DNA from: Lachnospiraceae bacterium
GTDB taxonomy: Bacteria; Bacillota; Clostridia; Lachnospirales; Lachnospiraceae
NCBI GenBank assembly: GCA_017441295.1
Contig: JAFRYA010000006.1
Span: forward strand, 206,049-270,048
DNA: 64,000 nucleotides
Direction of reading: 5' to 3'
The notes below the pieces were generated by a model. The model worked only from the letters and a program-made list of their open reading frames with translations, made no database searches and was not told the DNA's origin. The translations under genes and the position numbers were made by a program. This document shows, one piece after another, positions 15,626 through 45,265 of the stretch. The first letter of the stretch is position 1; each line of letters opens with the position of its first letter.

Positions 15626-15815
15626 GGCGCAGATTACGTATGATGGGATCTAAAATCTGCGCCTTTTTTCTTTATTTAGTAGCCTTTCAGCGCAGATAAT
15701 CTGAGATTCAATTAAAAAACTACGCCTTCGTGCCTGTAATCAAGGCAAAAAGGCGTAGATTTTACTTATTTTGAACCATTTTCTGCGCCAGGCAGGTAAA
15801 TCACCGGTTTAGCGC
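15626..15815 (+). repeat. Family-1 intergenic element, copy 1 (GGCGCAGATT boxes)
   Basis: Boxes in order: forward GGCGCAGATT (15626-15635), reverse AATCTGCGCC plus T-run (15654-15669), a forward-like AGCGCAGAT (about 15689), reverse variant ACTACGCC (about 15719-15726), forward variant GGCGTAGATT (about 15752-15761), reverse TTCTGCGCC (15781-15789). The variants CTACGCC and GGCGTAG changed together and still pair, which supports a real stem. The first hairpin plus T-run looks like a terminator on the plus strand. The tail resembles the GCGCCAGGC...GGCGC tail of copies 3 and 4 and runs into the end of the minus-strand reductase gene. Confidence 0.75.
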
Positions 15816-16975
15816 ACAGGTCTCTTCGCGAATGGATTGTCTGCGGCTCTCTGAGCAAGCATCTCCAGAACATCAGGAATAGCGATATTCTGTGGGCACT
15901 GGCTCTCGCACTGGCGGCACTGGATGCAGTCTGTAGGGCCTTTGCCCTCGCCCAGTCTCTGGATCGCGTTCGGTGTTGAGAACGCGTATTCAGCGATGAC
16001 GTCATCATTATAGATTTCGATCATCTTAGGGATATCCAGCTGCTGCGGGCATGTATCTGTGCAGTATCTGCATGCGGTACATGGGATCATCTTGGCTGCG
16101 AGGATCTTGTCCTTAATGCCGAACAGGAATTTGACTTCATCTTCTGTCAGCACATCGCGCTCCTTAAAGGTCTCAACGTTCTGATGGAGCTGATTCTCAT
16201 TGGACATACCGGAAAGTATCATGGTGACGCCCGGAACGGTGCGCAGGAATTTGAAGCACCAGTCAGTAATCTCGTCGTTCGGACGGAGAGCCTTCAGTTC
16301 GTCAATATAAGGCTGGGTGTAATTGATGAGCTTGCCGCCTCTGACAGGCTCCATTACCCAGATAGGAATGCCTCTCTTGTTCAGTTCATCAACTTTGAAC
16401 TTGGCATCCTGGTACTCCCAGTCAAACCAGTTGAGCTGAATCTGGCAGAACTCCATATATTGTCCGTATGTGTCCAGGAACTTAACAAAGTCTTCAGATG
16501 AAGCATGGGTGGAGAAACCGAAGTGGCGGATGCGTCCTGCCTCTTTCTGCTTCAGCAGGTAATCGATTACCTTGCCGCCCAGCTCAGGGTCCATGAAGTA
16601 GTTAATATTATGTCCGCTGACGTTGTGCAGCAGGTAGAAATCAAAATAATCAACCTTGCATTTGCTCAGCTGTTTCTCAAATACTTCCTCCTGTCTGGTG
16701 AAGTATGATTTATCAAATGTTGGAAACTTAGTTGCCAGGTAAAAGCTGTCTCTCGGGTAGTTGCTCAGGATGTTGCCGACTACGATCTCTGAATTGCCGT
16801 CGTGGTATGGCCACGCGGTATCAAAATAATTGATGCCGTTCTTCAGGCAGTAGTCGAGCATTCTTGCGGTTGTTTCCTCGTCAATGCTGTGCTTTTCATC
16901 ATCCAGTACAGGAAGCCGCATGTTTCCCATTCCAAGAGCTGATAATTTCAGGTCCTGAAAATCGTTATAATACAT
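15809..16975 (-). CDS. Aldo/keto reductase with C-terminal 2[4Fe-4S] ferredoxin domain
   Basis: This 388-residue protein has a TIM-barrel aldo/keto reductase core: FDTAWPYHDGNSE with catalytic Asp and Tyr, ATKFPT with the Lys, and YLLHNV with the His. A clostridial-type ferredoxin region follows with two cysteine clusters, CTACRYCTDTCP and CIQCRQCESQCPQ. This fused class is common in anaerobes; the physiological substrate is not known, and electrons may pass between the clusters and a carbonyl or flavin partner. The start overlaps the end of the methyltransferase gene by 11 bp, and its SD (AAGGAG) lies within that gene. Confidence 0.9.
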   Translation of the reverse strand: MYYNDFQDLKLSALGMGNMRLPVLDDEKHSIDEETTARMLDYCLKNGINYFDTAWPYHDGNSEIVVGNILSNYPRDSFYLATKFPTFDKSYFTRQEEVFEKQLSKCKVDYFDFYLLHNVSGHNINYFMDPELGGKVIDYLLKQKEAGRIRHFGFSTHASSEDFVKFLDTYGQYMEFCQIQLNWFDWEYQDAKFKVDELNKRGIPIWVMEPVRGGKLINYTQPYIDELKALRPNDEITDWCFKFLRTVPGVTMILSGMSNENQLHQNVETFKERDVLTEDEVKFLFGIKDKILAAKMIPCTACRYCTDTCPQQLDIPKMIEIYNDDVIAEYAFSTPNAIQRLGEGKGPTDCIQCRQCESQCPQNIAIPDVLEMLAQRAADNPFAKRPVR

Positions 16976-17852
16976 GCATTTTCTCCTTTCTTAAATAAAG
17001 TTTTCTGATATAGGCCGGTGTTGTGCCGCAGCACCCTCCCACAAGGCTTGCGCCTGCATTTATCAGTTCGGCCATGGAAGACGCAAAGGCGTCCTCGTCA
17101 AGATCGTATTTTACAGCTCCTCCGGGGAGCGTCTGGGGCATCCCGGCATTAGGCTTCGCAATCAGCGGCAGGCGGGTGGCACCGGCCATGGCCTCAATGA
17201 TCGGGAGCATCCTGTCGGGTCCGTATGAACAGTTAGCGCCTACAGCGTCCGCGCCGCAGTCAGTGATGATGCGGGCAGCGTCAGCGGCAGCGGTGCCGTA
17301 AGTTGTGCGTCCGCTCTCATCGAATGTCATGGTGACCATGAGCGGCAGTGAGGACACTTCATTAGCAGCTGTAATGGCGGCCCTGACCTCGTCAATGCTG
17401 ATCATGGTCTCGACAACCAGCAGGTCGCAGCCTGCCTTGTCAAGAATGCTGATCTGTTCTTTGTAAACGTCCACAGCTTCCTCAAAGGTCATGTCGCCGA
17501 AAGGCTCCAGCATTTCGCCGGTCATGGAAATATCTCCCGCAACCAGAGCGCGGCCCTGGGCGGCATTCTGGCTGATACGGACAGCATCCGTATTCAGCTG
17601 CTCTATCCTGCCTTGCAGGCCGAAGGTCTTAAGCCTTGCTGCGTTTGCGCCGAATGTAGGAGCCAGGATGATCTCGCTGCCGGCTTCAATGTATTGGCGC
17701 TGCAGGGTGATGACTGTCTCAGGATGGTCACAGACCCATTCTTCAGTGCAGCTGCCCCGCGGCATTCCCGCGGCCAGCAGGAAAGATCCGGTCGCTCCGT
17801 CCAGAATATGTATGGTGTTTTGGGTGTATGAAACAAACTCTTTTTTATTCAT
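16965..17852 (-). CDS. Homocysteine S-methyltransferase family protein
   Basis: This 295-residue TIM barrel has LDGATGSFLLAAG at the N-terminus, GANCSYGPD with the first zinc cysteine, and the terminal GGCCGTTP with the other two. It would transfer a methyl group to homocysteine to give methionine; S-methylmethionine or a corrinoid/folate partner are possible donors. A longer frame reaches 17981, but the extra N-terminus is not family-like and overlaps the rpsF promoter, so ATG 17852 (MNKKEFVSYTQ) is chosen. No SD is visible; a promoter -10 sits 6 nt before the ATG. It is first in a two-gene unit with the aldo/keto reductase. Confidence 0.88.
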   Translation of the reverse strand: MNKKEFVSYTQNTIHILDGATGSFLLAAGMPRGSCTEEWVCDHPETVITLQRQYIEAGSEIILAPTFGANAARLKTFGLQGRIEQLNTDAVRISQNAAQGRALVAGDISMTGEMLEPFGDMTFEEAVDVYKEQISILDKAGCDLLVVETMISIDEVRAAITAANEVSSLPLMVTMTFDESGRTTYGTAAADAARIITDCGADAVGANCSYGPDRMLPIIEAMAGATRLPLIAKPNAGMPQTLPGGAVKYDLDEDAFASSMAELINAGASLVGGCCGTTPAYIRKLYLRKEKMHVL

Positions 17853-17858
17853 GAAATA

Positions 17859-17887
17859 ATAATAATTAATTTTCTTGCAAATTGCAA
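17859..17887 (-). promoter_or_regulatory. Leaderless-type promoter for the homocysteine methyltransferase
   Basis: On the minus strand: TTGCAA (17882-17887), 17 nt, TATTAT (17859-17864), then 6 nt to ATG 17852. Transcription should start at the start codon. The -35 box lies inside the spacer of the divergent rpsF promoter. Confidence 0.55.
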
Positions 17888-17903
17888 TTATTCGTGTTAG
17901 AAT
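17875..17903 (+). promoter_or_regulatory. rpsF operon promoter
   Basis: TTGCAA (17875-17880), 17 nt, TAGAAT (17898-17903). It is back-to-back and interlocked with the methyltransferase promoter, so the two polymerases should exclude each other. The ~65-nt leader carries a short CTTTCC / GGAAGG hairpin near 17927-17947, where S6:S18 autoregulatory leaders occur in other bacteria; the diagnostic bases were not recognised. Confidence 0.6.
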
Positions 17904-21953: not shown

Positions 21954-21956
21954 TAA

Positions 21957-30571: not shown

Positions 30572-32326
30572 ATGGCAAATAATAATAACAGAAGACGATT
30601 AAAACCACTGCCGATCATCATCACGGTCATTATACTGGCCGCGATCATTGTGGCAGCAGTTATCCTTATAAAGAAACTCTCCCCGGCCAGGACTTATACT
30701 GATTTTGAGTATTATTACAATCTGTCAGGCGACAGTGAACTGGGCCGCGAGGCAGCCAGGGAAGACGAGTTGGCCATAGTGCTTCAGCAGCAGAATCCTG
30801 ATAAGCTCGAGGGTCTGATCCTTCAGAGCCGTGCCTTCAGCATGGACGGCCAGGTATACGTTAAATACCGTATTCTGAAGAACAATATTGACGACAGGAT
30901 CTATTTCGATGACGTTGACAACGTCGCGGTTATTACGAATGCTCTCCAGATGGTTACAGCTGAACTGGGCGAGCATGGATACAGTGTGGATGGGAACTTT
31001 GTTTCAACGGATTATGCCGTTGTGACCGAGAGGGACGGCGACATCTATTTCGCCATGGATTTCATTGATGAGTTTTCCAGCGCCAGCTATGAAGTCTTTG
31101 AAAATCCGGCCAGAGTTGTTATCAAACACGCATGCGGCACCATCAAGACCGGTGAGGTCAGCAAGAACACCCAGATCAGGGTTAAGGGCGGCATCAAGTC
31201 CAATATCGTCGGCGACGTTGAGAAGGGCGACGAGCTCCAGATCATTGAGGACCTGGATGACTGGCTGGGCGTTATGAGCAGCGAAGGCTACGTTGGATAT
31301 ATTAAGGCGAATGCCGTTACTAATATCCAGGAAACACAGGCAGCCAACGACTATGATGAGCCTGAATATACCTCACTGACCACCCCTGACCATGTCAGGA
31401 TGGGATGGCTGGCTGTGTATACGCTGGACGCTAATATCGAATTCTACGAACTGGCCGACAACGCGCCTCAGATGAACGTCATTTCTCCGACATGGTACTT
31501 CCTGGCTAATGACGAGGGCGGCGTATGGATGCTTTCTGACGGCAGCATTGTAGATGCGGCGCACGAGCGCGGCATGCTTGTCTGGGCATTGTTTGATGAC
31601 GCAAATACTGATTATGTGGAAGCAGTCCTGTCCAGCACATCCAAGCGTAAGGCAGTCATCGATGCAGTCATGGAAGACATGCGTCTTGAAAACATCGATG
31701 GCATTAACATTGACTTTGAGCGCATCGGCCTGGTTAACGATCTGGGCGATGATTTCATTGAGTTCCTGAGGGAGCTCTCAATAGAATGCCGCAAGGCAGG
31801 CAAATATCTGTCAGTCGACAACTACGCTCCGTATGATTACAACGCATGCTATCATATCGAAGAACAGAGCAGGCTCTGCGACTATGTAGTCGTCATGGCT
31901 TATGATGATTACCTGGGCGGCGCGGACGGCATTGGCCCGAATTCCTCACTTCCGTTTGTTAAAGAAGTGGCTGATCTGACAGTTTCAAAGGTGGAGCCTT
32001 CCAAGACTGTCATTGCCCTGCCGTTCTACAACAGGTTCTGGTATGAGCAGACTGACGGCACATTTATCCAGGCCAGCTATAATACGACCAAGGCGTGGTA
32101 TCTGCTGGAGCTGGCGGGCGAGTCAGCTGCATGGGACGAAGAGCTTGGTCTGCACTACGCTGAATATGATGAAGACGGCGAGCGCGTACATGCATGGCTT
32201 GAGAGCGAGGACTCCTATCAGGCTAAGCTGGGCCTGCTCGAAGGATATGGCATCGCGGGCATCGCAGGCTGGTGCCTGGGCCAGGAAATCCCTGAACTGT
32301 GGGAAGTAATCGCGCAGTATTATTGA
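30572..32326 (+). CDS. Membrane-anchored GH18 family glycosidase with SH3-like domain
   Basis: This 584-residue protein has a basic N-terminus and one signal-anchor helix (residues ~14-36). An N-terminal unknown region of about 160 residues follows, then an SH3-like domain (IRVKGGIKSNIVGDVEKGDELQIIED..GYVGYIKANAV) and a C-terminal GH18 TIM barrel. The catalytic signature is DGINIDFE, with WVLGQ-like AGWCLGQEIPELW at the end. The closest known group is the YaaH/SleL-type GH18 enzymes acting on peptidoglycan or N-acetylglucosamine glycans; no LysM is present. Start ATG 30572 is chosen over in-frame TTG 30548 because AGGAAAGGAAG precedes it. Confidence 0.85.
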   Translation: MANNNNRRRLKPLPIIITVIILAAIIVAAVILIKKLSPARTYTDFEYYYNLSGDSELGREAAREDELAIVLQQQNPDKLEGLILQSRAFSMDGQVYVKYRILKNNIDDRIYFDDVDNVAVITNALQMVTAELGEHGYSVDGNFVSTDYAVVTERDGDIYFAMDFIDEFSSASYEVFENPARVVIKHACGTIKTGEVSKNTQIRVKGGIKSNIVGDVEKGDELQIIEDLDDWLGVMSSEGYVGYIKANAVTNIQETQAANDYDEPEYTSLTTPDHVRMGWLAVYTLDANIEFYELADNAPQMNVISPTWYFLANDEGGVWMLSDGSIVDAAHERGMLVWALFDDANTDYVEAVLSSTSKRKAVIDAVMEDMRLENIDGINIDFERIGLVNDLGDDFIEFLRELSIECRKAGKYLSVDNYAPYDYNACYHIEEQSRLCDYVVVMAYDDYLGGADGIGPNSSLPFVKEVADLTVSKVEPSKTVIALPFYNRFWYEQTDGTFIQASYNTTKAWYLLELAGESAAWDEELGLHYAEYDEDGERVHAWLESEDSYQAKLGLLEGYGIAGIAGWCLGQEIPELWEVIAQYY

Positions 32327-32333
32327 TCTGAAT

Positions 32334-32359
32334 GGGCCGCCGGCTGACGGCGGCCTTTT
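32334..32359 (+). terminator. Terminator-like hairpin after the GH18 gene
   Basis: The 7-bp stem GGCCGCC / GGCGGCC is followed by TTTT. It ends 11 nt before tadA. Confidence 0.7.
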
Positions 32360-32369
32360 AACATAACTT

Positions 32370-32843
32370 ATGACAGAATTGACCAGAGAAGAAAAGTTCA
32401 TGAAGGAGGCCATCAAGGAGGCACGCAAGGCACGCCGCCTCGGCGAGGTGCCGATAGGCTGCGTTATCGTACAGGGCGATGAGATCATCGGCCGCGGCTA
32501 CAACCGACGCATGACGGACAAGACCGTTCTGGCGCATGCCGAGATCAGCGCTATCAAGAAAGCCTGCCGAAAGGTCGGCGACTGGCGTCTGGACGAGACC
32601 GAGATGTATGTGACGCTCGAGCCCTGCCAGATGTGTGCCGGCGCTATTATCCAGGCCCGCATACGCCGGGTCTATGTCGGAGCCATGAATCCCAAGGCCG
32701 GCTGTACAGGCAGCATCATCAACCTTTTTGATGAGCCTAAATTCAACCACCACCCAATCCTCAAGACCGGTATCCTCGCTGACACATGCAGCGATATGCT
32801 GAAGGAATTTTTCGCGCAGCTGCGCAGATCAAAGCAGTCTTGA
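32370..32843 (+). CDS. tadA: tRNA-specific adenosine deaminase TadA
   Basis: This 157-residue zinc deaminase makes inosine at the wobble base of tRNA-Arg(ACG). Motifs are EVPIGCVIV, the catalytic HAEISAI (HAE), PCQMCAGAI (PCxxC) and GGCTG-like AGCTGSIINLFDE. The start MTELTREEKFMKEAIKEAR aligns with Bacillus TadA. No SD and no clear promoter are visible upstream. It is directly followed by the SRP RNA, a conserved neighbour in Firmicutes. Confidence 0.93.
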   Translation: MTELTREEKFMKEAIKEARKARRLGEVPIGCVIVQGDEIIGRGYNRRMTDKTVLAHAEISAIKKACRKVGDWRLDETEMYVTLEPCQMCAGAIIQARIRRVYVGAMNPKAGCTGSIINLFDEPKFNHHPILKTGILADTCSDMLKEFFAQLRRSKQS

Positions 32844-32868
32844 CTTGACAGACGCCTTACATTATAAT
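32840..32868 (+). promoter_or_regulatory. SRP RNA promoter
   Basis: TTGACT (32840-32845), 17 nt, TATAAT (32863-32868). It overlaps the tadA stop codon and predicts a start at about 32875-32880. Confidence 0.85.
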
Positions 32869-32881
32869 TTCACTGCATTTG

Positions 32882-33037
32882 TTCCACAAAGTCAGCTTCC
32901 GACAGTGTCGATCCCCGGGTCCAATGCAACGGGAATCCACGAACCGTGTCAGGTCGGGAACGGAGCAGCACTAAGAGGAACCTCCTGTGTGACGTTGGGG
33001 TTCCTGGGAGTAGCTGCCGGCGGCTGACTTTGTGGAA
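32882..33037 (+). ncRNA. ffs: Signal recognition particle RNA
   Basis: The Ffh-binding domain IV is recognisable at 32947-32975: GTCAGGTCGGGAACGGAGCA followed by GCACTAAG, with the GGAA tetraloop and the asymmetric-loop bases. The ends pair perfectly over 15 bp: TTCCACAAAGTCAGC (32882-32896) against GCTGACTTTGTGGAA (33023-33037). A long rod with GAGGAACC/GGTTCC-type pairing lies between. The RNA is about 156 nt, longer than the 4.5S type and shorter than the Bacillus type. It acts with Ffh in co-translational membrane targeting. Open frames crossing it are spurious. Confidence 0.88.
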
Positions 33038-33047
33038 TAAAGCTACA

Positions 33048-33079
33048 CAGTCAGGCTTGTGCCTGGCTGACTTGCATTT
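33048..33079 (+). terminator. Probable terminator of the SRP RNA
   Basis: The hairpin CAGTCAGGC-TTGT-GCCTGGCTG includes one G-T pair. The T-tract is weak (CTTGCATTT). Confidence 0.45.
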
Positions 33080-33090
33080 ATGAGCATTGC

Positions 33091-33257
33091 AGCGCAGAAA
33101 AACGATTATAACATCGGTTTTTCTGCGCCTTTTTTATGCATTTTATTGTTGCTTGGCAGAGAAAAAAGCCAATCAATGTAATAATCTGCGCTAGCGGGGA
33201 ACTGAAAAAGGCAAAAAGGCGCAGATGATGAAAGAAAAAGATGATTTTTCTGCGCTG
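33091..33257 (+). repeat. Family-1 intergenic element, copy 2
   Basis: Boxes: forward AGCGCAGAAAAAC (33091-33103), reverse GTTTTTCTGCGCC plus TTTTTT, a forward-like GGCAGAGA (33155-33162), reverse AATCTGCGCT (33183-33192), forward AAAAAGGCGCAGAT (33213-33226), reverse TTTTCTGCGCT (33246-33256). The first stem extends to 12 exact pairs (GCGCAGAAAAAC / GTTTTTCTGCGC), with different bases from copy 4 (GCGCAGATTAT). It lacks the GCGCCAGG...TTGGCGC tail. It occupies most of the 318-bp gap before the RyR gene. Confidence 0.75.
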
Positions 33258-33355
33258 GCCGGAAAAAGATGGTATCGTGAAATAAAAAACATTTTATTTC
33301 CAGACAAAAATAGGTATTATTAAACTATCTGAGACAGGGAAAGTCAGGTGTAATC

Positions 33356-34792
33356 ATGAGAAAAGAAAAAGCCCGTAAAATTTATATGTTTGTTCTGAAC
33401 GGACTGCTGGTAGCCGCGCTGCTGTGCGGCGTGATCGGCCTGATGATAGCGCACGAGAAATTTACGGATGCGCTGTTCCATACGCTGATGATGTTCACGA
33501 TGGCGTACTTCTGGGATCCGGTCAACGTACTGGTCGACATTGCCAGATACCTGGCCGCGATCTTCACATTCAGTGCCATCCTGACTATCGTGTTCGGCGC
33601 GTTCCAGATCCTGCTTGACAGGATCCGCGGATCAAAGAAAGGCAGCACATTCGTGTACGGTGACAACGAGATGACCAAGAACTTCCTGGAGAATAACAGG
33701 AAGGCCATCCACGGCATCAACGGGTTCGTCGAAGCAGACAATTACGTGCTGCTGGACAGCGAAGAGAATAACCTGACATTCTGCATGGACCACCGCGATG
33801 AATTGCAGGGCAAGCGCATCTTCCTGCAGACAGAGAACCTCCCGGGAGTGTATTTCAGCGAGGGCAACGTCCGCGCATTCTCACCGGCAGAACTGGCCGG
33901 CAGGAAATTCTGGGAGCGCTATGACCTGATCAACCAGGCCTATGATGAGAACGGCCGCCCGAGGAAACTCGACGTATCACTGATCGGCTGGGGCAAACTG
34001 GGCGAAGAAATACTCTTCTTCGGCCTCATGGCCAACTCATTCGCGGACGTGACCTATCACATTTTCGGCGACTCACACGTATTTGAAAAGCTGCACGAAG
34101 ACCATCTGGACCAGCTCCAGATCAAAGCGTACGAGACAGACTGGTACGACCACATAGATGTTATCAAGAAGTCCGACATGATCATCATTGCTGAGCAGGA
34201 AAACCAGCTCAACCTGATCACGAACCTGTTCCTGGTATCAGCCGAACTGCGCGTAGTCGTCTGCGCATCATTCCGCGGCGACCAGCAGAACAAGAACATC
34301 CTGCTGAGCAACCGCGCCGGCCTGGTCCCGGAAAACAACCTGACCTTCTACAACTGGCAGAAAGCCTCACAGTCACTCGATGCCCTGCTGGGCGAAGAAA
34401 AGCTGCTCAAGAAAGACGTTGAAGAAGGCATTGCCCAGCAGAAGCTGCGCAGGAAGATCCGCGAGGACTGGGCATCTCTGGACACATTCAAACGTTACGC
34501 CTACCTGAATCTGCTGGACCTGCACCAGGTATATGACAAGCTGAAGAAGAAATGGGGCGACATCGTCACCGAGGAAGAACTGCTGCGCATTCTCCACACG
34601 CGCGTGCTCCATTATTACTGGTTCAACAACTGGGATTATTCCCCGCTGCCAGACCCCGAGCATCCTGAAAAGGACGAGAACATCACTAAGCGTCTGCAGC
34701 GTAGACTCAGGCCGCTGGAGGAAATGTCCGATGCAGAAATCGATCTCGAGCGCAGAATCGTCAAAGACGTCCTAGCTTCATTCGAAAAATAA
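33356..34792 (+). CDS. Two-TM, TrkA/RCK-like Rossmann and RyR-domain protein
   Basis: This 478-residue protein has N-terminal helices at ~10-30 and ~62-86, separated by FHTLMMFTMAYFWDP, a pore-loop-like stretch. A Rossmann-like core follows (KLDVSLIGWGKLGEEILFFGL: GxGxxG variant; SDMIIIAEQENQLNLITNLFL). At the C-terminus is a segment like the RyR domain (LHTRVLHYYWFNNWDYSPLP...LRPLEEMSDAEIDLERRIV). RyR domains in prokaryotes occur with TrkA-like and membrane domains and have been linked to nucleotide-sensing channels or conflict systems; here the function is unproven. SD AGGTG precedes ATG 33356. The gene is bracketed by family-1 elements. Confidence 0.65.
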   Translation: MRKEKARKIYMFVLNGLLVAALLCGVIGLMIAHEKFTDALFHTLMMFTMAYFWDPVNVLVDIARYLAAIFTFSAILTIVFGAFQILLDRIRGSKKGSTFVYGDNEMTKNFLENNRKAIHGINGFVEADNYVLLDSEENNLTFCMDHRDELQGKRIFLQTENLPGVYFSEGNVRAFSPAELAGRKFWERYDLINQAYDENGRPRKLDVSLIGWGKLGEEILFFGLMANSFADVTYHIFGDSHVFEKLHEDHLDQLQIKAYETDWYDHIDVIKKSDMIIIAEQENQLNLITNLFLVSAELRVVVCASFRGDQQNKNILLSNRAGLVPENNLTFYNWQKASQSLDALLGEEKLLKKDVEEGIAQQKLRRKIREDWASLDTFKRYAYLNLLDLHQVYDKLKKKWGDIVTEEELLRILHTRVLHYYWFNNWDYSPLPDPEHPEKDENITKRLQRRLRPLEEMSDAEIDLERRIVKDVLASFEK

Positions 34793-34794
34793 AG

Positions 34795-34821
34795 AAAGCC
34801 GCCTGCGGGCGGCTTTTTTGA
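34795..34821 (+). terminator. Terminator of the RyR gene
   Basis: The stem AAAGCCGCC / GGGCGGCTTT with a TGC loop is followed by a T-run. The same GCCTGCGGGC core and TTTTTTGATG tail recur after the Ig giant at 45026. Confidence 0.9.
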
Positions 34822-34902
34822 TGTTGCGGGGTGGCGGAGGTGTTCGTCAGATTTGCATGTTCCGTGTGGTTTTTCGGGGTTTGAGTGCCAGATTTGTGGC
34901 GC

Positions 34903-35085
34903 GGCGCAGAAAATGATGGAAAAAGCTGATTCTCTGCGCCTTTTTGGTCCCATATTGCCGAACATGGCAGAGAAAAACATATAAAAAAGTGATAATCTGC
35001 GCCTCGTAAGCCTTGAATAAGCTAAAAAGGCGCAGATTTTAGTATTATAGACAATCAAATCTGCGCCAGGCAAATAATTGGCGCG
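34903..35085 (+). repeat. Family-1 intergenic element, copy 3
   Basis: Boxes: GGCGCAGA (34903-34910), TCTGCGCC plus TTTTT (34933-34945), GGCAGAGA (34966-34973), AATCTGCGCC (34994-35003), AAAAAGGCGCAGATT (35024-35038), AATCTGCGCC (35058-35067). A tail palindrome GCGCCAGGC...TTGGCGCG ends at 35085. Architecture and tail are nearly identical to copy 4 on the other side of the Ig giant. Confidence 0.8.
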
Positions 35086-35105
35086 AGGAGAGCCGTATTT
35101 TGCAG

Positions 35106-35187
35106 GTTATGCGCACAGTCCAATGGCTGGATGACACAGAATAGATGTTATGCGCACAGTCCAATGGCTGGAAGACACAGAATCGAG
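35106..35187 (+). repeat. Tandem 41-bp direct duplication
   Basis: Two adjacent 41-bp units start GTTATGCGCACAGTCCAATG and differ at only a few positions (GGATGACAC versus GGAAGACAC). The right-flank counterpart near 45285 has a single diverged unit, so this duplication is recent and local. Confidence 0.8.
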
Positions 35188-35211
35188 GCCATGTGCGCAT
35201 TCGGGGGACCC

Positions 35212-35375
35212 TATGACACAAAATTACAGTTGAGGGTGTTTTTTGAGGGTGTTTTGCCACGGATTGACAGTTCTGGGTGTTTTTGAGGTAAAAAAACACC
35301 CAGAAACGTAATTTCGTGTCACGCAACAGCACAAAACACCCAGAAATGTAATTTTGTGGCACAGCCACACCCAAA
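35212..35375 (+). repeat. Family-2 nested inverted repeat, copy 3 (upstream of the Ig giant)
   Basis: A 14-bp perfect hairpin TTCTGGGTGTTTTT / AAAAACACCCAGAA (35271-35305) lies inside a longer inverted repeat. The left arm ACACAAAATTACAG...GGGTGTTTT near 35216 pairs with the right arm AAAACACCCAGAAATGTAAT (35333-35352) continuing to TTGTGGCAC. Together with copy 3 of family 1 it fills the 715-bp gap before the giant gene; the remainder (35376-35534) is AT-rich promoter sequence. Confidence 0.65.
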
Positions 35376-35443
35376 ACGCACACAAGTTCAATATGCAAAG
35401 TGCAAATATATGGCCGGATAAAATTGTCACATTTTCTCATAAA

Positions 35444-35479
35444 ATATATTAGATATTACATAACACAATTGTATATAAT
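35444..35479 (+). promoter_or_regulatory. Probable promoter region of the Ig-like giant
   Basis: A perfect TATAAT (35474-35479) lies in very AT-rich DNA about 55 nt before the start codon. No good -35 is evident at 16-18 nt. A second possibility is TTGTCA (35424-35429) with TATATT 15 nt later. The assignment is tentative. Confidence 0.4.
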
Positions 35480-35534
35480 AGTTATGAATATTCTTAATAT
35501 TTACATACATACTTGGAGAAAGGATTTCAAAGCT

Positions 35535-38500
35535 ATGAGACTATTGAAACGGGGAGCCGCAATTTTGATGTCATTGGTCATGATTGCAGGCTCTTTATTT
35601 TTGCAGCCGGTGACAGCGATGGCAGAGGAAGACTATCATCTGAACATCGATAAAACGGTCATTGGAGTAGGCGAGGAATTCGACCTGCTATTGCTGGATG
35701 AAAACGATATTGTCTGTGATGCGTGGTACCATGCATACAGCCCTGGTATTGTCGAAGTCAGCGATGATGGTCATGTGACTGGCTTAAGTAAAGGCCATGT
35801 AAGTATTGGGGTTACTTCAAAGGACTATTCGTTCGATGCCGTTTGTGATGTTGAGGTAATAGTGAAGAACGGCCTCTGCGATACCAATCTGACCTTGAAG
35901 GTCGATGAAGAATACTACCTTTACTATATGGATGGTGAAGGTAATTATGTAGAAGGCACATTTACCAGCAGCGATCCGGAGACGGTATATGCTGATGACT
36001 GGGGTACATTGAGAGCTCTTAAGACCGGCAGTGCCACTATAACCTATGTGTCATGGGATGGATCCATTACCGCGACCTGCGAGGTTAAGGTAATTCAGGG
36101 CCTGAATTATCATAACTATACTTTTTCGCTTGAGCAGAACATGACGCCGATGCAGCTTTCATTTTGGGGAGAAAATAATGAGTCAGTTGCTGGAAGGTTT
36201 TATAATGGCGATGAGACAATTGCCACAGTAGACGCCAACGGACTTGTTACTCCGAAGGCTGTTGGAACAACCTGGATCAGCTTTGTGTCCAACGATGACA
36301 AGTATCAAGACGAATGTATTATCAATGTGGCTGAAGAGTACTCCCTGACCGCCAGAACATTGGTTGTTATGCCATATACAAGTACTACACTGAGGTTCAA
36401 TGGACCGGAGGGAGAGACCAGCGAAGGCATATGGACCAGTAGTAACGAGAATGTGGCAACGTATGATAATGGATGGGTTTCCGGCGGAATTCCGGGAACA
36501 GCGATTATTTCATACACTTCTTTGGACGGTGAATATGAAGATTCCTGTACTGTTCATGTCATCCGGGGCTTTGAGAACGATGATATCAAGCTGCTCCTGG
36601 AAGAAGGCAAAGATACCGCGCAGCTGGAGTACCGCGGCATAGACGATGCTGTCATTGCGGGTACGTACGAGAGCAGCAGTCCTGAAGTTGCGACAGTAGA
36701 TAATAACGGTCTGGTAACTGCGGTTGGAGAAGGGTACACATACATTGAGTTTTCAGCGGTTGATTCGGAAACTGGATACAACTATAGCGATACCTGCCGT
36801 GTTGAAGTAGTCAGACCATATTCATTAAGCCAGAACAACCTGGTTCTCAGAACGAGGGCTTATCCGTATGTTTATTTCTACGGCGCAGATGGTGAGATAA
36901 TGAGTGAAGACGAATTCACCACCAGCAGCACTGATGAAACTATTGCTTACTATGAGAACGGATGCATCAACACTGTACATCCGGGCACAGCGACGATCAC
37001 ATTTACCTCACTGGACGGACATTCAGCTGAATGTAATGTCAGAGTCTATGGATTCAACTATGGTTCGCTGTATTTGACACCTGATACTCCGGAGCCTGTT
37101 CAGCTGATATTCAGCGGTACAGAGAAACCGATTATCAGTTTTGAGTTCAGCAGCGATAATGAAGAAGTTGCTACAGTTGATCAGAATGGTTTCGTAACTC
37201 CGGTTGGATTAGGAACTGCATATATCAAATACGAGGGCTTTGATGGTGAGAAATCCTGGGATGCTTTCTGCTGTGTCTCTGTCTCGGAAAATAATTATCT
37301 GTCTGAAACAGAAATTGAAATGACTCTAAATGATAACTGGCCAATCAGTTTCTTCGGAATTGACGGAGAGGCCTTGCCGGAGAGTGAGTTCACTGTACAT
37401 AGCGAAAATGAAAACATTGCTTACTATGAAGACGGCATTATACATCCAGTGGGCATTGGCTCGACAACCATTACATTTACTAGGCTGGATGAAAGCAGAA
37501 CCGCGTCCTGCATAGTCAATGTACATCCGGGACTCAACTATAAAGAACTGAATATGGCGGTTGGCGGTGAACCTGTTCAACTTAAATATTTAACGATGGA
37601 TGAAAGTGAAATCAGTGGTTCATTTGAGGTTGATTTTCCGGACATAGTGGATGTCAGCGAGGCTGGAATGGTTACACCGCTTTTGGAAGGAAGTACTTGG
37701 GTATATTTCAGAGCAGAGGTTGATGGAAAGAGCTACCGGGACGAATGCTATGTACAGGTCAGAAATGCACTCTATTCTCTGAGCAAAACTAATCCAACAT
37801 TTTCGCTCGGATATGAGTATACAGATATTTCCTTCTATGGCCCGGACGGAAATCCGCTCAGCGAAGATGAGTTTACCACTTCAAGTGATCATCCTGAAGT
37901 AGCATATTATGAAAATGGATACATTCAGCTGGTATCCGCCGGCGAGGCCAGGATCACCTTCACTCCGCTGGGGGATGAATCACATTCCGTATATTGCGAC
38001 GTTACGGTTGTAAACGGTCTGGAGCGAAAAGATATTCTGTTTACAGGTTTAGAGAATTATGAGCCGGTTAAGATAATCTTCCACGGAGTCAATGACGCTG
38101 TCATTGCGGCTGATAATATTGAAGTTGATAATCCAAGCGTAGTCAGGGTGGATGACGATGGTTATATCCATCCGGTAGGTGTTGGATATGCATATATTTA
38201 TTTCTATGGCCATGATGACTCACATGACTATTATGAAGCATGTTATGTAAAGGTAACAAATGCATATTCCTTAAGCATGGACAGCATGGTTACAACAAGG
38301 CATTCTGGCTATGGAATTGAGTTCTATGGTGCAGACGGCAATATTCTGAGTGAAGATGAATTCACCTGGGAAAGCAGCAATCCTGATGTGGCATATTATC
38401 AGAACGGAGTTGTTTTTGGCGGCGAACAGCCGGGTGAAGCAGATATTACATTCTATACACTCGACAGGCTGCACTATGACACCTGTCATGTAACAGTTGT

Positions 38501-41500
38501 GAGGGGACTGGAACCAAGAGAAATCGATTTCATTTATGGTGAAGAAAATGAACCGGTTCCGGTTGCTTTCTATGGACTTAATGACGAACTCATTGCAGAC
38601 TATTTCTCCATCGACGATGAGAGCGTGGCTACATTTGATGAAAACGGCTGCGTTATCCCTGTTGGCCTGGGAAATACATGGTTGTACTTCTCCAATTATG
38701 AAAACGGAAATAACTATAGCGATTCCATTCCTATCACAGTAAGAAATGCATACTATCTGAGTGATTACGAGATTATTCTCTCGCCGCGTACTGCCAGAAG
38801 CATACATTTCTATGGCCCGGATGGAGAAGACCTGGATAATAGTGAGTATTCAGTAGTAAGTGAGAACCCTGAAGTAGCTCAGTACGATAATGAATCTGAT
38901 GATTACGGTTCAATCAGTTTCGTAGGACTTGGCGAGACGGATATTACGTTCACCACCAACAACGGTTTCTCACAGACCTGCCATGTTTACTGCGTGCGAG
39001 GCTTAGAACCACAAGATATTTCTTTCAATCTTAGTGGAGATTATGATCCTGTTCCGCTGGTATTCTATGGAATCGGCGATGAAATCGTAAATGGCGGCTC
39101 ATATTCCGCAGAGGATACATCTATTGCGGATGTTGATGAGGCAGGAAATGTTTACCCGGTAGGCCCGGGCAAAACCGCTGTTCACTTTGATTATAACGAT
39201 GACCAGCATTACTATTTTGGCTATTGCACAGTAACAGTTACCAAGGCATACACTCTGGACCGCCATGAAATCATATTATCAAAAAATAGCGTTACTGAAG
39301 TTGTATTCTACGGTGCAGACGGAGAGAGAATGAGTGATGACGAGTTTACAGTTGAAAGCTCAGATCCTACCGTAGCTTACTATGAAGACGGATGGGTTTA
39401 TACTGCCGGCGCCGGAACAGCCCAGCTGACATTTACTGTCAATGGTACTGATATTTCAGATGTGTGTGAAGTAACAGTTTATGAGGGTTTGAACTATCAT
39501 TATCTCAGGTTGTTTGTGGGTTCAGATGAAGATCCAGTGCAGCTGATTTTCACCGGACCGGAAGGATATGATTCAAGCGGATACTTTGAAAGTGAAGATA
39601 CACATATAGCAACTGTTGATGAAAATGGTTATGTAACTCCGGTAAGCGCCGGTAATATATACATAGATTATTACAGCTATAATGGAAATTTCTATGACAA
39701 CTGTCGCGTCGAAGTGTTGGATTCTACTGTGTTAAATCATTTAACAGAACATGAGATTACTTTTGATGGAATAGATGAATATGAGTTCCTCGAATTCCTT
39801 GATGAAAATGGTAATAGTACAACAGACGGCACATGGACCAGCAGCGATGAGAATGTTGCAACAGTTGAAGACGGCATAATAATTGCTGTTGGATATGGCA
39901 GTGCAGTCATTACATACACTTCTCCGAAAGGAATTATTGACACATGTACTGTTACTGTTTATGGATTAAACCGCACTGACCTGGAGTTCTGGGTGGGCGG
40001 AAACATGGAGCCTGTAACATTGTTCTATCAGGATATGCAGGGACAGCAGGTGAGTGGTACATGGACAAGTGATAATGAAGAAGTAGCAACTGTTGATGCA
40101 AATGGTGTGGTTACACCTGTTGGAGAAGGTTATGCCGTCATCACATTTACCTATGAATCTGACGGACATTCAATAGAAGGCAAATGCTATGTCAGCGTCC
40201 GAAAAGCAACTTATCAGCTGAATACACATGAGATGTGGGTTCCTGTAGGCAGGACCGGTGAGAGGCTGAGCTTCAGTGGGGAAAACGGCAGTACCAAGGA
40301 AGGTACATGGAGCAGCAGCGACGAGAGCGCTGTAACTGTTGACCAGAACGGAAACGTTACCGGTATTACAGTTGGCGCGTCTGCGACCATCCATTATATT
40401 TCACCTGATGGCCAGCACGAAGATGACTGCTTAGTTACTGTTATTAAGGGTCTGGACCGCAGGAGCATGACGCTCACACTGGGCGGCGAAAGCGGGCAGC
40501 TGACATATACAAATGATTATTGGACACCGACATATGGTTACATGTGGCAGAGTACTAATGAATCTGTAGTTACTGTCAAAGGTGGTTTGGTAACTCCGGT
40601 AGGCGTAGGAACTGCCAAAGTATGGGTTCAGACATTGGACAATCCGTTTGACTATGACTGGTGCGATGTAACCGTTGTTGAGGAAACGCACGACTATGGC
40701 CTTAACTTCAGTGAGCTGCAGATCAGTGTTGACAGAAACCGCTTCATGCTTGCTTTTAAGGGACCTGATGGTGAGACAATTGAAGGCAACTGGACATCCA
40801 GCAATGAGGATGTAGCATATGTTAAGATTGTTGATAATGTTCCTCTTGCTGGAGTCTGTGGTGTCAGCGTTGGCGACGCAACCATTACATACACTTCATA
40901 CGATGAGCAATATACTGCATCATGCCTGGTTCATGTAGTTCCGGGACTGAACTATCATGAGCTGACGCTGCCGTTAAACAGCGAAGGCGTTGAGCTGATT
41001 TATACCGGACGGAATGGAGTTGAAGAAGGACTCTTCCAAAGCCTGAGTACTGATATTGCTGATATCGTTGACGGTGCTGTTGTTCCTTTAAGCGTAGGAA
41101 CAGCCGTTATAGAGTTCTTCAGCGACGAGAATATAGAGCATTATGACTATTGTGTAGTTAACGTTGTTCCTGCTCCTGTTGATCAGCTGAATATGCATCA
41201 TATTGACATTATGCTGAACGATACCTTCACCGGTCTGCGCTATATAGATGAAAACGGCGTAGAGACCACAGAGGGCACATGGGCCACCAGCGATACATCG
41301 GTTGCCGTAGTATACTCTGATGCTTCAATAGTCGGTACGGGTGTAGGTACTGCCGAAATCGACTATATAAATGCTGAAGGTGTGGTAAAAGATACCTGTA
41401 CAGTTACGGTTTACCAGGGTCTGAATACTGACAGATTAGAACTGTGGTACGGCGGCGAGAATAAGCCGGGCCATCTGGAGTTCACTGGACCTGATGGCAT

Positions 41501-44500
41501 CGTGGAAGGCACATTCACAAGCTATAATACAAACATTGCAGCAGTTTCAAGCGATGGAACAGTTACTCCGACCGGCGTTGGCTCAACGGATATTGAGTTC
41601 ATTTCCAACGATGGCAAGTATGTGGCTTACTGCTCAGTTACAGTAAATGGAACGTACTATCTGAACCGTGAAATCGGACATACTGTTGTCGATCAGGGCC
41701 TCTCACTGTTCTTCTATGGAGATAATGGAGAGATTCTGGGCGAAGATGACTATAACTGGAGCAGCAGTAAACCGGACGTAGCTACATATGACAAGGAAGA
41801 ACACCTTGTTAGAGGCTTGAGTGTAGGCCTTTCGGACTTCACTTTCTCATGTTTCGACGATACCGGTTATCATTCCGATGAGTGCCGCATTTATGTACAT
41901 CCTGGCCTGAATTATCAGGATGAGGAGCTGTATGTCGGCGATACGCTGCATCTGTTCTTCAAGATGATGAATGGTACTGTAGCGGAAGGCCACTATCAGG
42001 CAGGTCCATCGAACGTTATTACGGTTGACCAAAACGGCATTGTTACGGCAGTTGGAACTGGTACAGGATATGTAACATTTTTCGCTGACAGTAATGACTT
42101 GGTGGATTCCTGCAGGATAACTGTTACAGAGAAACCTCAGCCATATCTGAACTACACTGAAAAGACCATTCACATCGGCGAGACCTTCGATCTGATCTAT
42201 TATGACGAGAATGGCCAGCCGGTTTCCGAAAACCATTGGACCATCCGTGGTATTAACGTTGCCTATTGGCGTGTTACCGGTCGCACAGTTATCGGTCTCA
42301 GCGTAGGTACGGCGACATTCACATTTGATCCTAATGACGGAGAGCATGAGCCGCTCTCATGCGTAGTACATGTATATCAGGGTCTCAACTACCACAATAT
42401 GGATCTGTGGTATGGCCAGAATAATGCTTCGAAGCAGCTGTTCTTCACGGATCCTGACGGACAGCAGATCAGCGGCACATTCTCAGGCGGAGATCCTGCA
42501 GTTGCCACGGTTGACAGCGCAGGTAATGTAACGCCTGTCGGACTGGGCACATGTACAGTTAACTTTACTTCCGATGACGGACAGTACACAGATCAATGTA
42601 AAGTAACGGTTAAGCAGGAATATTCAATGAATATCGATTACCGCGAGGCCGTAGTACAGAACGGAATAGACCTGTTCTTCTATGATGAGAATGGAAACCA
42701 GATGAGCACCGACCGGTTCACCTGGACTACTACAGATGAAAACGTTGTTGTCTTCGATCCACAGTACGATGTTGTCCGTGCGGTCGGCCCTGGCGAAGCG
42801 GACATCACTTTCACATCCAATGACGGCCTGCACTCAGACACCTGCCACTTCAAGATCCATCCGGGTCTGAATGAGCGTGATATTGAGATGACTGTCGGTG
42901 AAGAAAAGCAGCTGACATTCACGCTGCTGAGCGGAGAGACAGTTCCGTTCGTATTCTTCGGAGTTGAGGATGAAAGAATTATCAGACTGGATGCAGACGG
43001 CACTCTGACAGGCCTTGCTCCGGGATATACAGGATTCAATGTCCAGGTAAGCGTTAACGGCGTAGGCCTGGGAGACAGCGGCAGGGTAACTGTCCGCGAA
43101 AAACCGGTAGAATACAAGCTCAGCTTCGATGAGCTGACACTTAGCCTCGGAATGAACCGTGCGTGCATGTGGATGAATGGCCCGGACGGCATAGAATACG
43201 ATGGCACGTGGGAAAGCAGCAATCCGGATGTTGCAGTTATTGAAGTTCCGACGATGGAAACAGATGGCGCGATCATCAAAGGACTGGGCATCGGTACCAC
43301 GACCATTACCTACACATCACACGATGGCATCCATAAAGCCACCTGTGAAGTAACGGTTGTACAGGGCTTAAACTACAAGTATCTGGAGATAGGAGTAGGC
43401 GATCCAGCTGTACAGTTGACATACACCGGCGCGAACGGCGTTCCGATTACTGAAGGCTTCAGATGGGAAAGCAGCAATCCGGAAGTTGCAACTGTTGTGA
43501 ACGGTCTGGTAACGCCTGTAGCCCCGGGCACCACTACGATAACATATTACGCAGACAGCACACTGGAGACATTCGATGTCTGCACAGTAACTGTCAGCGA
43601 CAAACCGATAGAATACAAACTTAACTTCGACGAACTGACACTCAGCCTGGGCAGAGCCCGTTCAGACCTGTATATGAATGGTCCGGACGGTCCGGAAGAT
43701 GACGGTACATGGGAGAGCAGCAATCCGGAAGTTGCGAAAATCACCTTCACTTCAGCGCAGGATCCGTCAATGTCATATGTTGGGGCAACTATTGAAGCAT
43801 TCAGCCTTGGAACCACAACCATCACCTACACTTCACACGACGGCGAACATACAGCCACCTGCGAAGTAACGGTAGTAAAGGGATTAAATATTAAAGACCT
43901 CACAATGACAGTTGAGGATGCACCGGTTCAGCTGACATACACAGGCGCGGACGGCATCCCAACGACAAACGGCACATGGTATAGTGTAGATGAATCAGTC
44001 GTAACAGTCCTGAACGGCCAGGTAACACCAGTTGCTCCGGGCAGCACAGTAGTTGTATACGAGGATCCGAACGACGAGAATATTTACGATCACTGCATGA
44101 TAGTCGTTACAGAACGCCCGGTAACCTACGAGCTGAACACGACATACCTCGACATCCCGGTTTACAAAGAGGGCATTTCCACAGGCACCGCACAGCTCCA
44201 GCTGATCGGCGACGACGGCTCCATAGCCAGCGCCGTATGGTACAGCAGCAACGAGTCCGTCGCAACAGTCGACCCGGACGGCCTCGTCCACGCCCGCAAG
44301 TACGGCAAGGCCACGATCTGCGCAGTCCTGCCGAGCGGCCAGTCATTCGAATGCGAACTGCAGACAAGGTTCTGGGATGTAGCCGGATCACCAACCAGCA
44401 GCGCACCGAATTACCAGTACTACTACAAGGCAGTTTACTGGGCAGCAGATCATGACCCGCTGATCACCAGGGGCTACGACCTCGAGTACTTCGGCGTTGG

Positions 44501-45020
44501 CATGAACTGCGCACGTAAAGAGTTCATGCTGTTCCTGTACAGGATGGCTGGCAATCCGACCATTACAAGCGCCGAGCTTAAGAGTCTGAGCAAGAAGTTC
44601 AGCGACGTTTCCGGCGAGAGCACAACGTTCAGGAAAGCTATTGCCTGGGGCGTAAAGGTTGGCATTACCAATGGCTACTCAGACGGAACATTCAAACCAA
44701 ATGATTCACTTACACGAAGCGATGCAATGATCATGCTGTGGAGATATTACGGAAAGATGGCTCCGAAGAATAATGATTACAGCAAGATCAAGAAGTTTAC
44801 TGACAAGCCTGCGAACACCAGCTCTGCGGCCTACAAGGCGATTGCCTGGGCGGCAAGCTACAGCATCACTAACGGCTATACAAAACAGTCGGATGTTCCT
44901 GCAGGATATGGATTCGCGGCTCCATGCTTCGGCAACAGTATACCGATCCAGCGTGAGCAGATGATCTACTTCCTGTACAAGGCAGTAAACAACTTCGGCG
45001 AAGCACCGAGAATTAAATAA
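35535..45020 (+). CDS. Giant Ig-like (BIG2-type) repeat surface protein with C-terminal SLH domains
   Basis: The protein has 3161 residues from ATG 35535, chosen over the longer frame from 35400 because a signal peptide follows (MRLLKRGAAILMSLVMIAGS...VTAMA, cleavage near 30) and AGAAAGGA precedes it. About 36 Ig-like units of ~82 residues fill residues 31 to ~2945. Typical phrases are TWTSSDENVATVD, NGxVTPVGxGTAxITY and DTCTVTV. Units alternate between two types, one opening GLNYHxL and one opening YxLN/YSLS, giving about 18 two-domain super-repeats of ~164 residues. The last ~215 residues carry three SLH-like motifs (FWDVAGS..., FSDVSGE...GITNGYSDGTFKPNDSLTR, FTDKPAN...). The likely role is wall-anchored adhesin or S-layer component. 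Flanked by long direct repeats. Confidence 0.88.
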   Translation: MRLLKRGAAILMSLVMIAGSLFLQPVTAMAEEDYHLNIDKTVIGVGEEFDLLLLDENDIVCDAWYHAYSPGIVEVSDDGHVTGLSKGHVSIGVTSKDYSFDAVCDVEVIVKNGLCDTNLTLKVDEEYYLYYMDGEGNYVEGTFTSSDPETVYADDWGTLRALKTGSATITYVSWDGSITATCEVKVIQGLNYHNYTFSLEQNMTPMQLSFWGENNESVAGRFYNGDETIATVDANGLVTPKAVGTTWISFVSNDDKYQDECIINVAEEYSLTARTLVVMPYTSTTLRFNGPEGETSEGIWTSSNENVATYDNGWVSGGIPGTAIISYTSLDGEYEDSCTVHVIRGFENDDIKLLLEEGKDTAQLEYRGIDDAVIAGTYESSSPEVATVDNNGLVTAVGEGYTYIEFSAVDSETGYNYSDTCRVEVVRPYSLSQNNLVLRTRAYPYVYFYGADGEIMSEDEFTTSSTDETIAYYENGCINTVHPGTATITFTSLDGHSAECNVRVYGFNYGSLYLTPDTPEPVQLIFSGTEKPIISFEFSSDNEEVATVDQNGFVTPVGLGTAYIKYEGFDGEKSWDAFCCVSVSENNYLSETEIEMTLNDNWPISFFGIDGEALPESEFTVHSENENIAYYEDGIIHPVGIGSTTITFTRLDESRTASCIVNVHPGLNYKELNMAVGGEPVQLKYLTMDESEISGSFEVDFPDIVDVSEAGMVTPLLEGSTWVYFRAEVDGKSYRDECYVQVRNALYSLSKTNPTFSLGYEYTDISFYGPDGNPLSEDEFTTSSDHPEVAYYENGYIQLVSAGEARITFTPLGDESHSVYCDVTVVNGLERKDILFTGLENYEPVKIIFHGVNDAVIAADNIEVDNPSVVRVDDDGYIHPVGVGYAYIYFYGHDDSHDYYEACYVKVTNAYSLSMDSMVTTRHSGYGIEFYGADGNILSEDEFTWESSNPDVAYYQNGVVFGGEQPGEADITFYTLDRLHYDTCHVTVVRGLEPREIDFIYGEENEPVPVAFYGLNDELIADYFSIDDESVATFDENGCVIPVGLGNTWLYFSNYENGNNYSDSIPITVRNAYYLSDYEIILSPRTARSIHFYGPDGEDLDNSEYSVVSENPEVAQYDNESDDYGSISFVGLGETDITFTTNNGFSQTCHVYCVRGLEPQDISFNLSGDYDPVPLVFYGIGDEIVNGGSYSAEDTSIADVDEAGNVYPVGPGKTAVHFDYNDDQHYYFGYCTVTVTKAYTLDRHEIILSKNSVTEVVFYGADGERMSDDEFTVESSDPTVAYYEDGWVYTAGAGTAQLTFTVNGTDISDVCEVTVYEGLNYHYLRLFVGSDEDPVQLIFTGPEGYDSSGYFESEDTHIATVDENGYVTPVSAGNIYIDYYSYNGNFYDNCRVEVLDSTVLNHLTEHEITFDGIDEYEFLEFLDENGNSTTDGTWTSSDENVATVEDGIIIAVGYGSAVITYTSPKGIIDTCTVTVYGLNRTDLEFWVGGNMEPVTLFYQDMQGQQVSGTWTSDNEEVATVDANGVVTPVGEGYAVITFTYESDGHSIEGKCYVSVRKATYQLNTHEMWVPVGRTGERLSFSGENGSTKEGTWSSSDESAVTVDQNGNVTGITVGASATIHYISPDGQHEDDCLVTVIKGLDRRSMTLTLGGESGQLTYTNDYWTPTYGYMWQSTNESVVTVKGGLVTPVGVGTAKVWVQTLDNPFDYDWCDVTVVEETHDYGLNFSELQISVDRNRFMLAFKGPDGETIEGNWTSSNEDVAYVKIVDNVPLAGVCGVSVGDATITYTSYDEQYTASCLVHVVPGLNYHELTLPLNSEGVELIYTGRNGVEEGLFQSLSTDIADIVDGAVVPLSVGTAVIEFFSDENIEHYDYCVVNVVPAPVDQLNMHHIDIMLNDTFTGLRYIDENGVETTEGTWATSDTSVAVVYSDASIVGTGVGTAEIDYINAEGVVKDTCTVTVYQGLNTDRLELWYGGENKPGHLEFTGPDGIVEGTFTSYNTNIAAVSSDGTVTPTGVGSTDIEFISNDGKYVAYCSVTVNGTYYLNREIGHTVVDQGLSLFFYGDNGEILGEDDYNWSSSKPDVATYDKEEHLVRGLSVGLSDFTFSCFDDTGYHSDECRIYVHPGLNYQDEELYVGDTLHLFFKMMNGTVAEGHYQAGPSNVITVDQNGIVTAVGTGTGYVTFFADSNDLVDSCRITVTEKPQPYLNYTEKTIHIGETFDLIYYDENGQPVSENHWTIRGINVAYWRVTGRTVIGLSVGTATFTFDPNDGEHEPLSCVVHVYQGLNYHNMDLWYGQNNASKQLFFTDPDGQQISGTFSGGDPAVATVDSAGNVTPVGLGTCTVNFTSDDGQYTDQCKVTVKQEYSMNIDYREAVVQNGIDLFFYDENGNQMSTDRFTWTTTDENVVVFDPQYDVVRAVGPGEADITFTSNDGLHSDTCHFKIHPGLNERDIEMTVGEEKQLTFTLLSGETVPFVFFGVEDERIIRLDADGTLTGLAPGYTGFNVQVSVNGVGLGDSGRVTVREKPVEYKLSFDELTLSLGMNRACMWMNGPDGIEYDGTWESSNPDVAVIEVPTMETDGAIIKGLGIGTTTITYTSHDGIHKATCEVTVVQGLNYKYLEIGVGDPAVQLTYTGANGVPITEGFRWESSNPEVATVVNGLVTPVAPGTTTITYYADSTLETFDVCTVTVSDKPIEYKLNFDELTLSLGRARSDLYMNGPDGPEDDGTWESSNPEVAKITFTSAQDPSMSYVGATIEAFSLGTTTITYTSHDGEHTATCEVTVVKGLNIKDLTMTVEDAPVQLTYTGADGIPTTNGTWYSVDESVVTVLNGQVTPVAPGSTVVVYEDPNDENIYDHCMIVVTERPVTYELNTTYLDIPVYKEGISTGTAQLQLIGDDGSIASAVWYSSNESVATVDPDGLVHARKYGKATICAVLPSGQSFECELQTRFWDVAGSPTSSAPNYQYYYKAVYWAADHDPLITRGYDLEYFGVGMNCARKEFMLFLYRMAGNPTITSAELKSLSKKFSDVSGESTTFRKAIAWGVKVGITNGYSDGTFKPNDSLTRSDAMIMLWRYYGKMAPKNNDYSKIKKFTDKPANTSSAAYKAIAWAASYSITNGYTKQSDVPAGYGFAAPCFGNSIPIQREQMIYFLYKAVNNFGEAPRIK

Positions 45021-45023
45021 TTA

Positions 45024-45056
45024 AGAAGAAGGCGGCCTGCGGGCCGCCTTTTTTGA
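45024..45056 (+). terminator. Terminator of the Ig-like giant
   Basis: The stem AAGGCGGCC / GGGCCGCCTT around TGC is followed by TTTTTT and GATG. Confidence 0.92.
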
Positions 45057-45082
45057 TGCAGTGGTGGTGATTGCATGGCCGT

Positions 45083-45265
45083 GGCGCAGATTATGCGGAG
45101 AGAAGCTGATAATCTGCGCCTTTTGGGGGCTATATTGGTTAGTGAGGCAGAGATAATAATTGGATAGAAACAAAATCTGCGCCGCAAAGGCATAGAATGA
45201 GCAAAAAAGGCGCAGATTCAGGAGTAAAGAGAAGAAAATTCTGCGCCAGGTAAATAATTGGCGCG
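45083..45265 (+). repeat. Family-1 intergenic element, copy 4
   Basis: Boxes: GGCGCAGATTAT (45083-45094) pairs perfectly over 12 bp with ATAATCTGCGCC (45109-45120), followed by TTTT. Then come GGCAGAGA (about 45146), AAATCTGCGCC (45173-45183), AAAAAAGGCGCAGATT (45203-45218) and AATTCTGCGCC (45237-45247). The tail GCGCCAGGT...TTGGCGC ends at 45265. It is the direct-repeat partner of copy 3. Confidence 0.8.

Follow-up and report, generated by a model that had tools for sequence, protein, structure and literature searches.

Palindromic box arrays spaced in whole helical turns suggest an undescribed, probably mobile gene-plus-array system in a Lachnospiraceae bacterium

In REPtrons an enzyme gene is flanked by palindromic repeats and gene-less copies of the repeats are dispersed (PMC3733652, PMC8266576). 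The EDxHD homing endonuclease I-Bth0305I is reported to sit as a dimer on a site of nearly 60 bp (PMC3943268). Here we describe arrays of short palindromic boxes in a Lachnospiraceae bacterium (assembly GCA_017441295.1), starting from four elements in a 64,000-nucleotide stretch of contig JAFRYA010000006.1 (positions 206,049 to 270,048), which we call the window. The arrays and the genes beside them suggest an undescribed and probably mobile system made of a gene and its arrays. The strongest single result is that the repeat periods of such arrays are whole turns of the DNA helix.

The four window elements, w1 to w4, lie on the plus strand at 15626..15790, 33091..33256, 34902..35068 and 45083..45248 and score 95.5, 94.8, 103.5 and 104.8 bits with a sequence-only model. 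They are where the first-pass annotation had found them, except that it began w3 at 34903. Each consists of about 165 bp with six boxes in the order + - + - + -, reading GGCGCAGATT (+) and AATCTGCGCC (-), which form three inverted pairs of about 38-40 bp each, repeated every 63 bp or so. The boxes of w4 start at 45083, 45111, 45146, 45174, 45209 and 45239; box 3 is GGCAGAGA in w2-w4, and boxes 4 and 5 of w1 are the variants CTACGCC and GGCGTAG. The T-run past box 2 and the A-run ahead of box 5 that had been noted are present in all four. All exact matches (6/6) measure precisely 104 bp from box 2 to box 5, even though the intervening DNA is dissimilar. Because the genome contains GGCGCAGATT 28 times and its reversed control 0 times, the window elements are not due to chance; six GGCGCAGATT places outside the arrays resemble coding sequence by eye. 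A lone inverted GGCGCAGATT pair on contig C30 (L011, about 1468-1510) is possibly a decayed array. The element w2 lies directly past the signal recognition particle (SRP) RNA and a terminator-like hairpin. Diverged sequence of about 460 bp, flanks included, is common to w3 and w4 (34800-35360 and 44980-45490, 68% identity), so that the two may derive from one local duplication around a large surface-protein-like gene.

The four belong to a genome-wide family. The sequence-only model, built from eight copies (alignment A2, with the C29 copy left out), identified nine arrays in the 1.99-Mb assembly (18 hits over both strands, best E 4e-30), those outside the window lying one each at C15:12524, C27:18290, C29:77548, C40:22210 and C40:23208 (contig:position). 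The placement first described, just after a plus-strand unit and in one orientation, holds for the four window copies and does not extend to the genome. By open reading frame (ORF), tRNA and SRP calls, two copies are between convergent genes (C40b, w1), four are in tandem context (C29, for example), two are between divergent genes (C15, C40a) and one is beside a contig end; the C29 copy scores better on the opposite contig strand.

Two of the nine arrays flank a single gene on C40, a contig other than that of the window, in an array-gene-array unit of about 1.2 kb, and the seven further arrays are elsewhere in the genome. The gene product (266 amino acids, no Pfam or NCBIfam family assigned) has a predicted PD-(D/E)XK/EDxHD nuclease fold in one half; the other, N-terminal half is long and helical. 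The top solved-structure fold match of the nuclease half is to the EDxHD homing endonucleases (I-Bth0305I) and Vsr. Across 57 sequences E164, D194 and H210 are invariant and D215 is conserved in at least 90%. The nuclease half also resembles a domain of the candidate defence proteins PADLOC PDC-S68 (57/57 members). The helical half has structural neighbours (rod, Mediator, prefoldin) that appear to be of the kind any long helix attracts, and we did not use them. A third family gene in the genome, at C34:43494, lies between two six-box arrays, and a search with the exact pattern gave none elsewhere in the genome (4 pairs; 2 for the reversed control). The family gene on C7 has a stop, and its arrays persist. 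A fourth family gene, at C34:32294-33025, has no detectable array.

Relatives of the protein are found in 14/14 genomes of the genus, its own included (1-8 matches each at E 0.001, mostly several), and in 52/150 genomes of the family, taken one per genus (E 1e-10); in at least two of these 52 (G072, G125) the relative is only part of a reading frame of more than 1,100 amino acids. GTDB genomes contain at least 574 loci, of which the best 80 were used for locus analyses; by title these 80 include Lachnospiraceae, Oscillospiraceae, Erysipelotrichaceae, Treponema and Fibrobacter. The tree requires 4 changes among the three phyla, and its deep branches are weakly supported. Carriage by phages was considered and rejected on collection searches. 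Two IMG/VR stretches match a peptide pattern and 0 encode a relative. Among three phage records, MT839528.1 contains a family member (380-1072) that covers 88% of the query at 36% identity; the record is a faecal scaffold labelled 'bacteriophage', unverified and unannotated. Of eight plasmid records, six annotated as AAA family ATPase, 0 cover 80% of the query.

Arrays adjoin these genes predominantly on the upstream side. We searched 700-bp flanks for chains of at least five boxes (8-mers, one mismatch, alternating orientation, gaps 14-60), counting a flank if at least 600 bp were present upstream. An array was found upstream in 40/67 loci and downstream in 5/77, compared with 1/55 far-upstream, 2/71 far-downstream and 1/144 shuffled control flanks, and the longest chains have 19 and 20 boxes (L097). 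The best array is upstream of the gene in 46/53 loci. The genus set, own genome included, has an array on either side in 17/30 loci. A second set of 29 loci gave 15/22 upstream and 1/28 downstream; as L236 duplicates L120, the upstream count becomes 15/21. The detector is conservative and at a six-box cut-off misses all of the window's own arrays (0/182 segments scanned). Since both Fibrobacter loci (L148, L168) have fewer than five boxes, arrays are reported for Bacillota and Spirochaetota only. The box of the window itself was absent from 60 relatives (0/60, pattern search) and from the GTDB contigs (0, one exact pattern); the window array model matched 1/13 congeners (E 0.009, in coding-like sequence) and nine others in 200 family genomes (E 1.6e-4 to 9.5e-4).

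Among loci with at least six boxes (n = 53), median periods clump at means of 52.9, 63.2, 74.3, 84.1 and 93.3 bp, and a single one is at 41. These clumps are whole turns of 10.5 bp, the window family at 63 bp corresponding to six turns. Phase-locking to zero is strongest at 10.54 bp (V 0.774, 53 loci). Taking one locus per 50%-identity protein cluster (n = 29), the peak is at 10.50 bp with V 0.774, a value that 0/2000 uniform random sets attained when all periods between 8 and 14 were allowed. For the second set the helical repeat was set to 10.5 in advance; V was then 0.840 (20 arrays; 0/100000 uniform sets) and, without L236, 0.865 (19 arrays; 0/100000). When whole clumps were shifted at random, the observed value was reached by 67/100000 in the second set and 0/100000 in the first. 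As support only, 17/33 jumps of at least 5 bp within arrays are 9-12 or 19-22 bp and 16/33 lie elsewhere. Whole-turn spacing places bound proteins on one face of the helix and therefore most likely means that the boxes are read as double-stranded DNA; recognition of RNA hairpins or of single strands is disfavoured because neither gives a reason for such spacing.

Boxes differ between genes, and their likeness grows with protein identity (53 loci, Mantel r 0.26, 0/2000 permutations), mainly above 50% identity. As both protein halves correlate with the box (N-terminal r 0.21, C-terminal r 0.26), box reading is not assignable to one half. Had gene and array been inherited together as a unit, the same signal would be expected.

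A gene with its array together with dispersed solo arrays is also found in four other genomes examined: G001, G008, G006 and Treponema bryantii NK4A124. The G001 box TTACATGA forms 18 exact pairs distributed over ten places, including one next to the gene. The T. bryantii box forms 8 exact pairs at three places, as does GGCGTATA, a second box of our genome (1 for the reversed control of GGCGTATA). Two G001 arrays are 95.5% identical over 313 bp and have unrelated flanks, and three more, in further places, match the first at 83-87% identity. Such near-identity in unrelated surroundings indicates that arrays get copied. In G008 two arrays in inverted orientation, 82% identical over 295 bp, stand on either side of four reading frames (L195:730-5986) beside a family gene. 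This G008 arrangement resembles a composite transposon. In G001 the TTACATGA arrays of L197 and L198 are bordered by GTCATG/GCATGAC-like boxes; such boxes are similar to the box of another G001 family gene (L075), as if two arrays were nested. The solo arrays inspected are essentially intergenic, some touching the ends of long frames (L204, L208) and one (L196) overlapping a frame of 134 amino acids.

Boxes of solo arrays stay conserved while their linkers diverge, and the arrays are thus kept. Mismatches amount to 2.7% in boxes vs 17% elsewhere in the five G001 copies, 0/128 vs 21% in the G008 pair, 0/80 vs 44% between w3 and w4, and 12.7% vs 55% among the nine copies in our genome. For these counts boxes called in a row were excluded from the comparison or, where two arrays were compared, boxes were called in one array and read in the other; calling by exact match biases somewhat towards conserved places, an effect we judge too small to explain the gap. 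A looser box definition gave the same direction, mostly weaker (G001, 5.7% vs 18.6%; G008, 2.2% vs 25.5%; w3/w4, 18.4% vs 45.7%).

On these observations we think it rather likely that the window elements are solo copies of a six-box array whose boxes are bound as double-stranded DNA by the C40 protein, with its predicted nuclease fold, the array-gene-array unit being the complete element and the solo arrays its gene-less derivatives. Binding of the boxes by the protein is, judged by itself, probable. A protein dimer would sit on each inverted box pair, and whole-turn spacing of the pairs would align the dimers on one DNA face and favour cooperative assembly. Bound to the array upstream of its own gene, the protein could set its own expression. 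A nick or cut at an array, followed by repair copying, could carry arrays, either together with the gene or alone, to new places; we assign spread driven by the nuclease just under an even chance. Somewhat more tentative is the proposal of a new kind of mobile element, in which a protein of homing-endonuclease fold reads phased palindromic arrays as ends and landing places, each lineage having its own box, and gene-less arrays spread and are then kept by the host for a function. The conservation of old solo arrays means that spread cannot by itself account for everything and that a host function or an addiction effect has to be considered. The arrays are near-palindromic, and no target-site duplication is evident at the array ends read by eye.

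The first-pass annotation offered portable double terminators or 3' RNA processing elements as alternatives to a mobile family, pointing to stem bases that vary yet still pair. Single examples of such pairing exist, and the T-run past box 2 would suit a terminator. Over the eight copies, however, pairing on A2 as a three-hairpin structure is at shuffle level (81.6% of cells vs 80.9% in shuffles; 157/500 shuffles as high), as is covariation (0.089 vs 0.077; reached by 123/500), and the copy-1 pair GGCGTAG/CTACGCC links box 5 to box 4, which belong to separate hairpins in the proposed scheme. For w4, the sole copy folded, both strands give better folds than shuffled sequence (z -4.6 and -5.3), an advantage that inverted-repeat DNA gives anyway. 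Searches of Rfam, with the gathering threshold or with E up to 1, give no family at the elements. All four window copies already have a terminator-like hairpin ahead of them: in a scan of 32000-46900 (loops of 3-8 only, so that box pairs with longer loops could not be flagged) it was on the plus strand with few T before w2 and on the minus strand before w3 and w4, and that of w1, outside the scan, was read directly. With copies between divergent genes and whole-turn spacing against both RNA roles as well, we consider either highly improbable. The idea of a mobile REP (repetitive extragenic palindromic) or MITE (miniature inverted-repeat transposable element) family had the right direction, given the dispersed copies, the array-flanked gene and the near-identical arrays in unrelated flanks; the first-pass interpretation as a whole is partly supported. 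An ordinary REP or MITE family, with an unrelated transposase and accidental nearness to the gene, would account for palindromic, dispersed copies. It is very improbable, as the gene linkage recurs with different boxes in Bacillota and Spirochaetota (though not at the 2 Fibrobacter loci), the six non-array GGCGCAGATT places look coding by eye, and the genome, at 90% assembly completeness, has no Y1 transposase (Y1_Tnp, PF01797, 0 matches). A Y1 transposase acting in trans was rejected on the same search.

Without mobility, the protein could be a DNA-binding regulator on a nuclease scaffold, with the gene-side array as its operator and solo arrays as a regulon or as chromosome-organising sites. 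The upstream position of the best array, the conserved solo boxes, the intergenic location of the inspected solo arrays and a phasing that fits cooperative binding agree with this. Near-identical arrays in unrelated flanks, two genes of our genome flanked on both sides and solo arrays between convergent genes do not, and the conserved active-site-like acids would be superfluous; we regard such purely regulatory arrays as unlikely. Box conservation would also follow if the arrays held the nuclease harmless and array loss freed it, an addiction or defence unit to which the PDC-S68-like domain would be suited. The arrays of C7 remain, however, beside a gene with a stop, and we find this explanation quite improbable.

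Other features of the window include a very large frame at 35400-45020 (3206 amino acids) with Big_2, Big-like and SLH domains, and a frame of at least 5705 amino acids at 46886-64000 that runs off the contig end and has List-Bact repeats (first 5000 amino acids scanned). A Clostridiales-1 RNA at 13154-13322 scored 48.5 bits against an Rfam cut-off of 48 in an E-value search and did not appear in the gathering search.

If our preferred reading of a nuclease-fold protein with its own arrays is true, a further enzyme class would join the few proteins that shape interspersed repeats in bacteria. Candidate protein/site pairs would number in the dozens, every one of them having a short box and a geometry testable by half-turn insertions, and unannotated hairpin-like repeats in Lachnospiraceae, Treponema and relatives may be explained. 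Word searches of open-licence PMC papers, several flooded by CRISPR papers, showed among the matches listed no paper linking this protein family to palindromic arrays.

Among the closest known systems we count TnsA and the Tn7 ends, the EDxHD endonucleases and REPtrons; BOX and RUP of pneumococcus are similar as short interspersed repeats, and we know of no nuclease gene linked to them. The possible kinship with I-Bth0305I and Vsr lies in the fold match and in the conserved E164, D194, H210 and D215, putative counterparts of the catalytic E, D, H, D residues of the EDxHD family. Unlike EDxHD homing endonucleases, the protein has its own helical N-terminal half and is encoded next to putative sites that are numerous, in phase and dispersed. 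As in REPtrons, comprising REP/REPIN repeats and the REP-associated tyrosine transposase (TnpA-REP, RAYT), one enzyme gene is flanked by palindromic repeats with dispersed copies (here the C40 gene and seven further arrays), and the repeats are specific to the enzyme. Two features that define REPtrons were looked for and are lacking: the enzyme is predicted to be PD-(D/E)XK/EDxHD-like rather than HUH/tyrosine, and there is no general GTAG tag, GTAG or CTAC occurring in 4/53 box 8-mers and not in GGCGCAGATT. The multi-site arrays in whole helical turns further suggest recognition of double-stranded DNA rather than of hairpins. The logic resembles that of REPtrons, whereas the enzyme class and the design of the repeats differ.
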